NCBI RefSeq assembly: GCF_021560015.1
Contig: NZ_CP073588.1
Location: 558,001-622,000, forward strand
Length of the DNA stretch: 64,000 nucleotides
Direction: 5' to 3'
Source: Shewanella vesiculosa
Lineage (GTDB): Bacteria > Pseudomonadota > Gammaproteobacteria > Enterobacterales > Shewanellaceae
Under the pieces are notes generated by a model. The model was not told the origin of the DNA. It ran no database searches and saw only the letters and a list, made by a program, of their open reading frames with translations. Position numbers and translations under genes: made by a program. Positions 8,452 to 17,005 of the stretch are shown in pieces (the first letter of the stretch is position 1; the number at the start of each line of letters is the position of its first letter).

Positions 8452-9323
8452 ATGTGGCGAAAACTGATCGTTCTCACAAGTTTGTGTCTTTGCTCAACAG
8501 CCCATGCTGATTTGAGGCACTACGTTGCATCACTTGAAAACTCAGCATGGCGTGTTGGCGAGAATAATCCAATAGAGTGTCGCTTGGAGCATGATATTCC
8601 TGATTATGGCCGTGCAATATTTACCAGTAGAGCCGGTAAAAGTTTAAATTTAAGTTTCACCTTAGATATGTGGCTCAAGCCTGATGCTGTGACTAAAGCA
8701 ACGTTAATTAGCCGAGCTCCTAGCTGGCGTCCAGGGCATAATGCTAAAGAAATTACTGAGTTAACTTACAGTAAGCAGTTTAATGGTGAAGTGCCTAAAA
8801 AAGCCGCCTGGTCAATGTTAAATGAGTTGAGTCAGGGGATGGAGCCGACGTTTTATTATGCTGATTGGTACAATAACGATACTAAAATTGCAGTGGGCAT
8901 CTCTTCAGCTAATTTCGGTGGAAAATATCGTGAGTTTCGCGCTTGTTTAGCAAATTTACTGCCTTATAGTTTTGATGATATCGCTTTTACAGTATTAAAT
9001 TATCAAGAAGGTGGAGTAGAACTGACGCGTTTTTCTACCCAGCAGTTACAAAAAATACAGCGTTACTTGTCTTTTGATCCAGACGTTGAGCTGATTTTAG
9101 TTGATGCATACACAGACAGTTACGGTGGACGCTCTATTAATCAGAGAGGGTGTCAGATAAACGAGCTGCCTCAGTGAAAGATATTTTAATTGCTAGCGGT
9201 ATCCCTAAAGATCGTATTCATACATCCGGTCATGGTGAAAAACGCCATGTTGCAGGCAATGATCTTGCCGAAGAACGTAAGCTAAATCGCCGAGTTGTGA
9301 TTAAAATAACCAAGCCTATCTAA
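8452..9323 (+). pseudogene. motY: Sodium-type flagellar motor protein MotY, frameshifted
   Basis: MotY forms the T ring of sodium-driven polar flagellar motors and helps anchor the stators. A signal peptide (residues 1-19, ending AHA) precedes the N-terminal MotY domain. The C-terminal OmpA-like peptidoglycan-binding domain is split: the first frame reaches VDAYTDSYGGRSINQR, then runs to a stop near 9177. Another frame continues VSDKRAASVKDILIASG to ITKPI at 9323. The break lies near 9144-9150, where a duplicated AG dinucleotide would explain it. Removing two bases gives 289 residues. The upstream sigma-28 promoter supports the assignment. It may be a sequence error or a true lesion. Confidence 0.85.
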
Positions 9324-9545
9324 TTCCTCTCATTTATTTTTTTAGCTGCGCTACTTAGCGCAGTTAAACTCAGTTGTTTATTTATCACTATCTCTTTGGC
9401 CTTGAACTAACATAAATACCTTTTGATTGAATGCCTAAGTGTAAAAAGCTTACTAACTTTTTATTAACGGGTTCGATGCTGAAGGTTGAATACCAAGATG
9501 TATACTCATATGAGATTAATGTTGTTTGCTGCGGCAAAAAAAGAC

Positions 9546-9573
9546 AAAAAAAAACCCACTTAATCCAAGTGGG
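9546..9573 (-). terminator. Orphan minus-strand terminator of the small RNA candidate
   Basis: CCCACTT/AAGTGGG stem with 5-base loop; nine A on the left read as a U run on the minus strand. No protein gene lies upstream of it on that strand for nearly 1 kb or more. Confidence 0.88.
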
Positions 9574-9702
9574 CTAAATAATTTGCAATCAACAAATCTA
9601 AGGAAGGAAGTCAAACATAAGAACTAAAGAAAACTGAGGTATTGGGTTACATCAGTTTGGAGTTCTTGATTTTCAATATCTGAATCACAAGTCTTGAAAA
9701 CA
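9546..9702 (-). ncRNA. Candidate small RNA, unnamed
   Basis: A minus-strand promoter (TTGTCA, 17-base spacer, TATTAT) ends just right of 9702. The predicted transcript of about 155 bases has three stem systems. TTTTCAA/TTGAAAA lies at 9670-9700. A nested hairpin has AAGAACT/AGTTCTT (9619-9625 with 9661-9667) enclosing AAACTGA/TCAGTTT (9631-9637 with 9652-9658). A terminator at 9546-9573 has a 7-bp stem and nine U. Between them is an unpaired pyrimidine tract CUUCCUUCC (9602-9610), complementary to Shine-Dalgarno sequences. No reading frame of note. I do not recognise an Rfam family. Structure is seen directly; expression is inferred. Confidence 0.65.
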
Positions 9703-9707
9703 GGATC

Positions 9708-9736
9708 ATAATAGAATTAATACACTAAACTGACAA
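9708..9736 (-). promoter_or_regulatory. Sigma-70 promoter of the small RNA candidate
   Basis: On the minus strand, TTGTCA (9736-9731), a 17-base spacer and TATTAT (9713-9708) form a near-consensus promoter. The expected start is 9701-9702, immediately before the first stem. Confidence 0.7.
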
Positions 9737-9757
9737 ACTAGAAAAATTACTCTTTAC

Positions 9758-9774
9758 GATTAGTAAAACTAATC
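9758..9774. promoter_or_regulatory. Perfect palindrome upstream of the small RNA promoter
   Basis: GATTAGT-AAA-ACTAATC is a perfect inverted repeat centred about 30 bases upstream of the -35 box of the small RNA candidate, a position fit for an activator or repressor. It is followed by CTTTTT on the plus strand, so it could instead act as a plus-strand terminator. Confidence 0.45.
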
Positions 9775-10394
9775 CTTTTTAATGGTCTTATATTTTTATA
9801 TCTGCCCTAATCGGCTTATATAGCGGTTTTCTAAGTTGTTATTTACATTTTTTGCATAATTATTCGGATTAGATAATTGTGTAATAATTTTATTTAACAA
9901 ATAGAACATATTTGCGTAAATCATGAAGCCTAATAATGTTCCACAATGTGATTAATATTGCTCTTAATCGTTATTGATAGCATTAATAGACTTCAGTTAC
10001 TGCGATGAAAAATACTTCAGATCAGTGTCTTTTGATCCTGTCCCCGAATAGTGTGATAAATAAGCCGCACTTTACCTCGCTCAAAACCATATTTAAGTGG
10101 AGTGTATTTTTAGCTTAACTTTTATTAACGTTTACGTTTATGTGGACGTGCGATAATGGGATTGCAGCGATTATTTTATGTTTATTTGTGGTTACATTTT
10201 TACTTTCGTAAGGGTGAATTGTCGGCTGTCAGCGCCAAGTAATATACTTTCTTGATGGCATACTTTAGTTAACCGCTTGTTAATTATTAGATGGATTACA
10301 TTAATAAAGCTTCATCTCTTGCTGTTCCTGAGGTTTTTCGAGTGTTTCAGTTCATTTTGAGCAAAATAAAGTCTGTTTTTACCTTGGTACATTA

Positions 10395-10423
10395 TTCACA
10401 AGCGTGTTGGTACTCGGTATAGT
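10395..10423 (+). promoter_or_regulatory. Sigma-70 promoter of the ybgC-tol-pal operon
   Basis: TTCACA (10395-10400), a 17-base spacer and TATAGT (10418-10423) lie about 40 bases before the ybgC ATG. Confidence 0.6.
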
Positions 10424-15924: not shown

Positions 15925-16000
15925 GGGTCGTTAGCTCAGTTGGTAGAGCAGTTGGCTTTTAACCAATTGGTCGAAGGTTCGAATCCTTCACGACCCACCA
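15925..16000 (+). tRNA. tRNA-Lys (anticodon UUU), copy 1
   Basis: Complete cloverleaf of 76 bases with encoded CCA: acceptor GGGTCGT/ACGACCC, D arm GCTC/GAGC, anticodon arm with loop CTTTTAA, and T arm GAAGG/CCTTC with loop TTCGAAT. All six copies in the array are identical. Confidence 0.98.
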
Positions 16001-16043
16001 CTTTTTAAATCGTGGCTAAACAATTTAAATGTTACACCAAGAT

Positions 16044-16121
16044 GGGTCGTTAGCTTAGTTGGTCTTGAAACAGAGACAGTGGGCTTTTTCCCCAGTAAGA
16101 ATAGATATTCTTGCAAAACCA
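16044..16121 (+). pseudogene. tRNA-Lys-like element, copy 2
   Basis: Same element as copy 1 with one extra C in the anticodon-like arm. This gives a 7-base loop CTTTTTC on a TGGG/CCCA stem, i.e. a UUU anticodon position. Confidence 0.7.
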
Positions 16122-16125
16122 AGAT

Positions 16126-16201
16126 GGGTCGTTAGCTCAGTTGGTAGAGCAGTTGGCTTTTAACCAATTGGTCGAAGGTTCGAATCCTTCACGACCCACC
16201 A
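16126..16201 (+). tRNA. tRNA-Lys (anticodon UUU), copy 2
   Basis: Identical in all 76 bases to copy 1, including the encoded CCA. Confidence 0.98.
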
Positions 16202-16244
16202 CTTTTTAAATCGTGGCTAAACAATTTAAATGTTACACCAAGAT

Positions 16245-16321
16245 GGGTCGTTAGTTCAGTTGGTCTTGAAATAGAGACAGTGGGCTTTTTCCCAGTAAGA
16301 ATAGATGTTCTTGCAAAACCA
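16245..16321 (+). pseudogene. tRNA-Lys-like element, copy 3
   Basis: As copy 1, but GTTC replaces GCTT in the 5' arm and the last arm has a G:U pair (AAGAAT with GTTCTT), so the hairpin is kept. Confidence 0.7.
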
Positions 16322-16325
16322 AGAT

Positions 16326-16401
16326 GGGTCGTTAGCTCAGTTGGTAGAGCAGTTGGCTTTTAACCAATTGGTCGAAGGTTCGAATCCTTCACGACCCACC
16401 A
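16326..16401 (+). tRNA. tRNA-Lys (anticodon UUU), copy 3
   Basis: Identical in all 76 bases to copy 1, including the encoded CCA. Confidence 0.98.
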
Positions 16402-16444
16402 CTTTTTGAATCGTGGCTAAACAATTTAAATGTTACACCAAGAT

Positions 16445-16522
16445 GGGTCGTTAGTTCAGTTGGTCTTGAAACAGAGACAGTGGGCTTTTTCCCCAGTAAG
16501 AATAGATGTTCTTGCAAAACCA
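16445..16522 (+). pseudogene. tRNA-Lys-like element, copy 4
   Basis: As copy 3, with the four-C version of the anticodon-like arm (7-base loop). Confidence 0.7.
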
Positions 16523-16526
16523 AGAT

Positions 16527-16602
16527 GGGTCGTTAGCTCAGTTGGTAGAGCAGTTGGCTTTTAACCAATTGGTCGAAGGTTCGAATCCTTCACGACCCAC
16601 CA
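16527..16602 (+). tRNA. tRNA-Lys (anticodon UUU), copy 4
   Basis: Identical in all 76 bases to copy 1, including the encoded CCA. Confidence 0.98.
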
Positions 16603-16645
16603 CTTTTTGAATCGTGGCTAAACAATTTAAATGTTACACCAAGAT

Positions 16646-16723
16646 GGGTCGTTAGTTCAGTTGGTCTTGAAACAGAGACAGTGGGCTTTTTCCCCAGTAA
16701 GAATAGATGTTCTTGCAAAACCA
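16646..16723 (+). pseudogene. tRNA-Lys-like element, copy 5
   Basis: Same sequence as copy 4. Confidence 0.7.
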
Positions 16724-16727
16724 AGAT

Positions 16728-16803
16728 GGGTCGTTAGCTCAGTTGGTAGAGCAGTTGGCTTTTAACCAATTGGTCGAAGGTTCGAATCCTTCACGACCCA
16801 CCA
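16728..16803 (+). tRNA. tRNA-Lys (anticodon UUU), copy 5
   Basis: Identical in all 76 bases to copy 1, including the encoded CCA. Confidence 0.98.
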
Positions 16804-16846
16804 CTTTTTAAATCGTGGCTAAACAATTTAAATGTTACACCAAGAT

Positions 16847-16925
16847 GGGTCGTTAGTTCAGTTGGTCTTGAAACAGAGACAGTGGGCTTTTTCCCCAGTA
16901 AAGAATAGATGTTCTTGCAAAACCA
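16847..16925 (+). pseudogene. tRNA-Lys-like element, copy 6
   Basis: As copy 4 with one more A before the last arm. Confidence 0.7.
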
Positions 16926-16929
16926 AGAT

Positions 16930-17005
16930 GGGTCGTTAGCTCAGTTGGTAGAGCAGTTGGCTTTTAACCAATTGGTCGAAGGTTCGAATCCTTCACGACC
17001 CACCA
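16930..17005 (+). tRNA. tRNA-Lys (anticodon UUU), copy 6
   Basis: Identical in all 76 bases to copy 1, including the encoded CCA. Last intact copy of the array. Confidence 0.98.

Follow-up and report, generated by a model that had tools for sequence, protein, structure and literature searches.

Several described small RNAs (sRNAs) approach, from different sides, the locus analysed here in Shewanella, whose metal respiration is well known. FnrS, CyaR and RoxS/RsaE are CU-rich sRNAs directed against Shine-Dalgarno sequences, and RyhB is an sRNA under Fur control. RyhB has been studied as a trans-acting sRNA of Shewanella oneidensis (PMC5826389), and 209 sRNA candidates have been predicted in S. 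piezotolerans (PMC5471319). The closest parallel in promoter layout is gcvB of E. coli, where sites for the regulator GcvA are centred at -65 and -43 from the start, the second being less conserved (PMC5002191). The GcvA motif is given as ATTAG-n5-CTAAT in that footprinting study, which took in 150 Gammaproteobacteria, and the GcvA site of RegPrecise coincides with ATTA-n7-TAAT (PMC5002191), while another source describes a T-N11-A site with CTAAT (PMC3658693). In Shewanella, GcvA is listed as present with gcvTHP under its control, and the motif of the genus is stated to be completely different from that of E. coli (PMC3223726).

The locus described below was not named in the titles and abstracts among the matches listed for Shewanella literature on sRNAs and Hfq, GcvA and glycine cleavage, GcvB, start sites and noncoding RNA, and no title or abstract start in the literature search linked cspD with GcvB or an sRNA in this genus. 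It could be among the 209 candidates of S. piezotolerans; the genes motY, tolQ and ybgC are absent from the main text of that paper (PMC5471319).

Here, we analyse an intergenic region in a 64,000-nt stretch of the Shewanella vesiculosa genome (contig NZ_CP073588.1, positions 558,001 to 622,000), referred to as the window. On comparative grounds, we consider it likely that the region encodes a stand-alone trans-acting sRNA, activated by GcvA in response to glycine, which would act by pairing with Shine-Dalgarno regions.

Genomic locus and predicted elements

The predicted gene, as read directly from the window sequence, is on the minus strand, with motY on one side and ybgC/tolQ on the other, and the neighbouring proteins carry the Pfam domains MotY_N, OmpA, thioesterase (YbgC-type) and MotA/TolQ/ExbB. 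A 201-bp query found a single homologous copy in each of 129 Shewanella genomes (weakest E = 1.8e-7), although for many distant genomes the alignment is confined to the core; locus L002 comes nearest to the window's sRNA, at 91% identity. The gene motY adjoins the sRNA in the same orientation in 117 of these 129 loci and ybgC lies within 1.5 kb in 36; among the 12 loci lacking a motY match, L053 is close to the end of its contig and in the others motY may sit beyond the flank examined. In the window strain, motY itself (8452-9323, plus strand) looks broken by a frameshift or a sequencing error, with MotY_N in an ORF at 8452-9177 and the OmpA part in another frame at 9150-9323; a crude frame test recognised a motY-length frame in 112 of the 129 genus loci. 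Elsewhere in the window, six tandem tRNA-Lys (TTT) genes with a period of about 200 bp occupy 15925-17005 of the plus strand.

An earlier note, made from the letters of the window, had described an unannotated sRNA gene at 9546-9736, with a terminator that no protein gene on that strand uses. Its TTTTCAA/TTGAAAA stem, two nested 7-bp stems, CU tract and terminator with nine U were all found as placed: the outer arms of stem-loop 1 at 9700-9694 and 9676-9670, the nested pairs AAGAACT/AGTTCTT and AAACTGA/TCAGTTT, the CU tract CUUCCUUCC at 9610-9602 within the invariant core, and a 7-bp terminator stem inside 9573-9555 followed by nine T at 9554-9546. No minus-strand ORF of at least 40 aa overlaps 9546-9702. 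The promoter is likewise present (TTGTCA at 9736-9731, a 17-bp spacer and TATTAT at 9713-9708) and its region is conserved, but taken alone it is no better than chance, three promoter-like sites occurring in 8800-10400 against a shuffle mean of 6.5; terminators in the same interval number two versus 0.8 in shuffles. As an ensemble, the elements exceed chance, the predicted 157-nt RNA folding with z = -3.56 and none of 200 shuffles being as stable. The span given in the note was right, but the operator at 9773-9737 had been left out (Table 1). The apparent promoter of its own and the Rho-independent terminator with a U run are features by which Hfq-dependent trans-encoded sRNAs are classed; the 5' end at about 9701-9702 is inferred from the -10 box and the 3' end from the terminator.

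Table 1. Predicted features of the sRNA locus, with positions in the window.
Feature	Position	Strand	Remarks
IR1, ATTAGTTTTACTAAT, probable GcvA site	9759..9773	-	ATTAG-N5-CTAAT; centred at 9766, which is 65 bp before the predicted start
IR2-like weaker half-site, AGTAA-TTTTT-CTAGT	9737..9751	-	Centre 9744, about -43
Sigma-70 type promoter, TTGTCA-N17-TATTAT	9708..9736	-	Motif match and conserved alignment columns
Predicted sRNA transcript	9546..9702	-	About 157 nt; 129 of 129 genus genomes
Stem-loop 1: outer stem (7-bp TTTTCAA/TTGAAAA arms) with variable inner hairpin	9670..9700	-	119 of 129 loci have recognisable outer arms
Stem-loop 2: AAGAAC/GUUCUU outer stem around AAACUGA/UCAGUUU hairpin	9619..9667	-	Outer arms in 114 of 129 loci; outer pairs also in RNAalifold
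Invariant core, proposed seed: GUUCUUAUG(C/U)UUGACUUCCUUCCUU..AUUUGUUGAUUGCAA	9583..9624	-	Near-identical alignment columns
Rho-independent terminator: AGCCCACTTGGATTAAGTGGGTT then T run	9546..9575	-	Terminator scan and compensatory changes

A predicted GcvA operator

Alignment of the DNA upstream of the sRNA revealed IR1 as a block in which the arms are fixed and the N5 centre varies. The arms are exact in 96 of the 129 loci and carry one mismatch in 24, leaving nine loci with two or more mismatches, one of which (L095) is cut off by a contig end; at most one mismatch was found in 3 of 387 300-nt background windows taken at the ends of these loci versus 120 of 129 upstream regions. A second, IR2-like element of the form TTTTTCT[AC]G[TC] is present in 91 of 126 loci, and where both elements occur their centres are 22 bp apart in 83 of 84 cases. 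Of 126 loci, 45 contain the exact sequence TTTGTC, and a -10 box accompanies it in 44. Within these 44 loci, which are the part of the 126 examined in which the spacing was scored, the centre of IR1 lies 65 bp from the predicted start in 36 and 63 bp in eight.

The identical box, ATTAG-N5-CTAAT, precedes gcvA in all 30 sampled genomes (27 exact, three with one mismatch). Upstream of gcvT, where 26 of 30 loci were readable, eight sites are exact, nine have one mismatch and nine have two; two of the one-mismatch sites were discounted, since at -15 they run into the start codon, so that 15 of 26 remain at one mismatch or fewer. The identities of GcvA and GcvT are above the NCBIfam cut-offs. The window strain's genome contains 17 copies of the motif versus 20 of the reversed control, and two of the other 16 copies sit upstream of gcvA and gcvT. 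Because this genome-wide count is no higher than the control, the operator is convincing only by its position and conservation. A copy at about 2.095 Mb (L138), which precedes a gene for cytochrome bd subunit I by some 630 bp, is probably due to chance.

Since the same box precedes gcvA and the published gcvB sites share the -65/-43 placement, the sRNA is probably activated by GcvA. We regard control by this regulator as very likely and a response of the sRNA to glycine as probable. The sRNA might instead be genuine and yet answer to some other regulator of the LysR type whose T-N11-A box is similar, in which case the match to GcvA would be coincidental. Boxes of the LysR family resemble one another, and a first look with a gcvA query returned between 26 and 87 LysR-like candidates per genome. 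The differing GcvA motif reported for Shewanella points the same way (PMC3223726). Against this stand the identical arms that precede gcvA itself in all 30 genomes sampled and a -65/-43 geometry that is that of the published gcvB promoter (PMC5002191), and we consider a different LysR-type regulator unlikely.

A CRP-like site upstream of IR1 was rejected as a general feature of the locus, being found in 30 of 126 loci only and absent from the window strain. Where it does occur, for example in L067, L028 and L039, it reads GTGA-N6-TCAC and stands at a fixed spacing 24-25 bp upstream of IR1; catabolite control of the sRNA may have been added in some lineages.

Comparison with GcvB and other sRNAs

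Searched against Rfam (release 15), the sRNA matched no family at the gathering score, and it is a family new to that release. The best weak match was RF02837 with 26.5 bits (cut-off 49.5), and the weak below-threshold matches include anti-hemB and rli22. The GcvB model (RF00022) scored 12.1 bits at the locus against a cut-off of 42, and the RyhB model reached only 16.9 bits against 55, which sets the RNA apart from RyhB. GcvB itself was found over the cut-off in 25 of 119 genomes of the order and in none of 20 Shewanella genomes, five of which gave below-threshold matches. A match of this kind in the window strain's genome, at 544854-545024 (L261; 32.9 bits), is a false positive: by eye, the stretch looks like the coding region of an rplY-like gene (ribosomal protein L25) followed by its terminator.

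Twelve GcvB loci were fetched from other families of the order; gcvA starts beside GcvB in nine of them and the R1 sequence ATGTTGTGTTTGCA is present in 11. R1 is missing from the Shewanella sRNA, the core of which reads TTTGTTGATTGCAA instead, and the sRNA (567.5 kb) and gcvA (172.9 kb) lie about 395 kb apart on the same contig. Membership in the GcvB family was rejected on model score, position and R1 seed alike. What the two RNAs share is a stand-alone sRNA gene preceded by boxes of the GcvA type centred at -65 and -43 (at the Shewanella locus the second box is an imperfect half-site and both are counted from a predicted start), a Rho-independent terminator, seed regions modelled as unpaired for the Shewanella sRNA and, for the Shewanella sRNA as a prediction, a response to glycine. 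They differ in that the sRNA is not beside gcvA, has a CU-rich seed where R1 is GU-rich, and has a different predicted target. The sRNA would work in the manner of a GcvA-controlled RNA without membership in the GcvB family. By description, it also resembles FnrS, CyaR and RoxS/RsaE in its C/U-rich stretch aimed at ribosome-binding sites, and differs from them in its predicted regulator and its long invariant core.

A highly diverged GcvB that has moved away from gcvA would account for the common promoter layout, for the failure of GcvB to exceed the cut-off in the 20 Shewanella genomes, and for a short U/G-rich stretch ending in UUGCA that both RNAs contain. Its model score, however, is below that of the false positive in the same genome, R1 is absent, and no homology emerged. 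Such a descent appears quite improbable.

Conservation and structure of the RNA

Folding of 42 dereplicated homologues gave z < -2 for the whole transcript in 41 and, in a shuffle control for the stretch of stem-loops 1 and 2, for the 5' half in 38. In single-sequence folds, the inner hairpin of stem-loop 1 has at least five pairs in 110 of 119 loci and takes 48 distinct forms (a few stem-loop 1 rows having been parsed too long), and the inner stem of stem-loop 2 has at least five pairs in all 114 loci, with 62 distinct stems. In the window strain, the inner hairpin of stem-loop 1 forms no pairs when folded alone. RNAalifold on the 42 aligned sequences recovered 27 pairs, six of them with changes on both sides and mostly in the terminator, and did not recover the inner hairpins. 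An example is the terminator column pair 177/193, which shows compensatory changes (AU in 18, GC in 17, GU in six and CU in one). The 42 sequences were dereplicated from 102 parsed loci; 27 of the 129 remained unparsed, in 25 cases with TTTTC[AG] not found at the 5' end. Because the parser required this sequence, the invariance of the 5' arm in the alignment is due in part to selection.

The columns of the CU tract are identical in 126-127 of 127 loci (L128 and L129 were left out). Over the 42 sequences, the CU tract has a mean unpaired probability of 0.70 (minimum 0.34), whereas the block that follows has one of 0.46. According to these models, the CU-rich tract is mostly single-stranded and the second half of the core less so. 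Stems, CU tract, terminator and promoter region are kept in Shewanella, the inner stems vary yet stay paired, and the terminator pairs compensate, all of which bears out what the earlier note had expected of relatives of a genuine gene. Its overall reading, an unannotated trans-acting sRNA of no recognised family with a CU tract directed against Shine-Dalgarno sequences, is likewise supported by this conservation. We judge the sRNA gene to be almost certainly real.

A covariance model of the sRNA matched 32 of 394 genomes of the order and two of its 114 genera, namely 30 genomes of Shewanella and two of the sister genus Ferrimonas. Among the genomes listed, one further Ferrimonas genome (G157) has no match and nothing was found outside the two genera, with filters strict enough to discard weak matches. 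When the genome_contigs collection (described as covering 84,980 species) was searched with a pattern of the core, 82 stretches were obtained; the 80 listed comprise 70 from Shewanella, five from Ferrimonas and five scattered others. These five others (L367, L368, L377, L381 and L394) were rejected by eye for want of both the conserved flank and a terminator. The Ferrimonas copies retain the core as CUUCCUUC..UUUGUUGAUUGC and keep GGTTCTTTTGCTTAACTTCCTTC..TTTGTTGATTGC and a terminator. In two of the five, ybgC-tolQ lies about 2.7 kb upstream of the sRNA, less than 1.6 kb of upstream DNA having been examined for the other three, and motY was not found beside any of the five in the flanks examined. 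Among four Ferrimonas loci with upstream DNA, three have only the left arm of IR1 intact and one reads ATGAG-N5-CTAAT.

The invariance of the core could also stem from a tiny peptide, MLDFLPSIC or MLDFLP, which would make the transcript a leader or a dual-function RNA. A start codon is indeed present in 115 of the 129 loci (ATG in 111, GTG in four), with MLDFLPSIC encoded in 84 loci and MLDFLP in 21. However, 14 loci have no start codon, the position of the stop varies between loci, the ATG is missing from the Ferrimonas copies, third codon positions are likewise frozen, and by eye no ribosome-binding site precedes the frame. The mini-ORF was rejected as too poorly conserved across the 129 loci, and we consider a peptide function of the core very improbable. 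That no independent RNA exists, the hairpins being either a terminator for the converging motY or spurious structure, is scarcely credible: the hairpin lies about 220 bp beyond the end of the motY remnant and promoter-like sites are common by chance, but the terminator scan calls this terminator for the minus strand only, and operator, promoter, 5' stems and core are conserved, not the terminator alone.

Predicted targets

The CU tract would fit an antisense repressor of translation, a role we regard as decidedly likely for the sRNA. The sequence AAGGAAG-N0-14-ATG occurs 90 times in the window strain's genome versus 48 times for the control, as expected of Shine-Dalgarno sites, and those sites lying in 70 fetched loci were scored, yielding 38 gene starts of at least 60 codons. 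With the 34-nt consensus core, cspD ranks first of these 38 at -23.4, whereas with the window's own 34-nt core it ranks fifth at -21.2, behind L309 (-26.2), L282 (-22.3), and L284 and L292 (-21.8 each). The identity of the window strain's CspD protein is given by TIGR02381 (125.6 bits, cut-off 115.4). In E. coli, CspD is a stationary-phase inhibitor of DNA replication.

Conservation of the site was followed in 25 genomes with GAAGGAAGT-N1-12-ATG. The string GAAGGAAGTGGAAGTATG was found in 20 of them, the next most frequent string, GAAGGAAGTGATG, in seven. Eight loci were read, seven with exact GAAGGAAGTGGAAGTATG and one variant, and all are cspD; the remaining 13 of the 20 were taken as cspD by the string only. 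In G061 (read as cspD) and in G055, one base differs after GAAGGAAGT; in the same search, G033 and G127 gave no match and the site of G119 was not identified. The region from promoter to start of cspD is near-identical in eight Shewanella loci (L278, L478, L482, L487, L489, L496, L500 and L502), and conservation of the leader may be due to its own translation.

The predicted pairing between core and cspD leader spans about 42 nt. For the genus consensus, the duplex reaches -34.4 kcal/mol, which none of 2000 shuffled cores and none of 2000 shuffled leaders equalled, and for the window strain -29.0 kcal/mol, with 7 of 2000 as good in each shuffle, cspD having been chosen after inspection of the results. 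Co-folding of the full-length sRNA with the cspD leader gains 12.4 kcal/mol. Among 143 mechanically called ORF starts of at least 120 codons, no start pairs as well as cspD (-33.7 and -29.0), mean pairing being -14.4 and -14.3 and the best -24.5 and -26.0. In 80-nt windows paired with the consensus core, cspD attains -34.1 to -36.4, and sites unrelated to it get as far as -29.3 to -31.6.

As regards a seed of the Hfq class, the core is invariant and the CU tract mostly unpaired by prediction, and pairing with cspD is strong but only fifth of 38 in one ranking. Owing to that rank, our confidence in cspD was lowered from evenly balanced to slightly below, and we put it forward tentatively as the most likely conserved target. 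The earlier note had named no target. Two other candidates fell away, asmA (30 loci fetched) and tolR (27 loci read of 80), which pair strongly in the window strain and are not conserved in relatives. For the M3 peptidase gene dcp, AAGGAAGT was seen by eye in eight of 20 orthologues read (30 loci fetched), and a dcp-type peptidase is a weak second candidate in some species only. The pattern GGAAGGAAG-N0-30-ATG was rejected, neither of its two matches in the window strain's genome being a plausible gene start.

Discussion

In the proposed mechanism, plentiful glycine would lead the LysR-type regulator GcvA to switch the sRNA on. GcvA would bind ATTAG-N5-CTAAT at -65 together with the weaker site at -43 and recruit RNA polymerase. 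The resulting RNA of about 157 nt would fold into two stem-loops and a terminator, leaving the CU-rich tract mostly single-stranded. With the help of Hfq, which is assumed here, the core would then block translation by pairing with Shine-Dalgarno regions in which (G)AAGGAAG(U) occurs, the most likely conserved target being cspD, the gene of a cold-shock-domain protein. The reading yields predictions for each level of control, with GcvA as the regulator, glycine as the signal and cspD as the first target.

For the Shewanella-Ferrimonas lineage, it is conceivable, though we put it no higher than a tentative proposal, that GcvB has been replaced by an unrelated sRNA which keeps the promoter logic of gcvB at another place in the genome and links glycine abundance to CspD. 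If so, in a lineage in which GcvB went undetected, GcvA would drive another RNA with other targets, and a regulatory RNA would prove exchangeable while its transcriptional control stays. For the cell, this would mean that rich medium silences the growth brake CspD through a single antisense core of about 40 nt.
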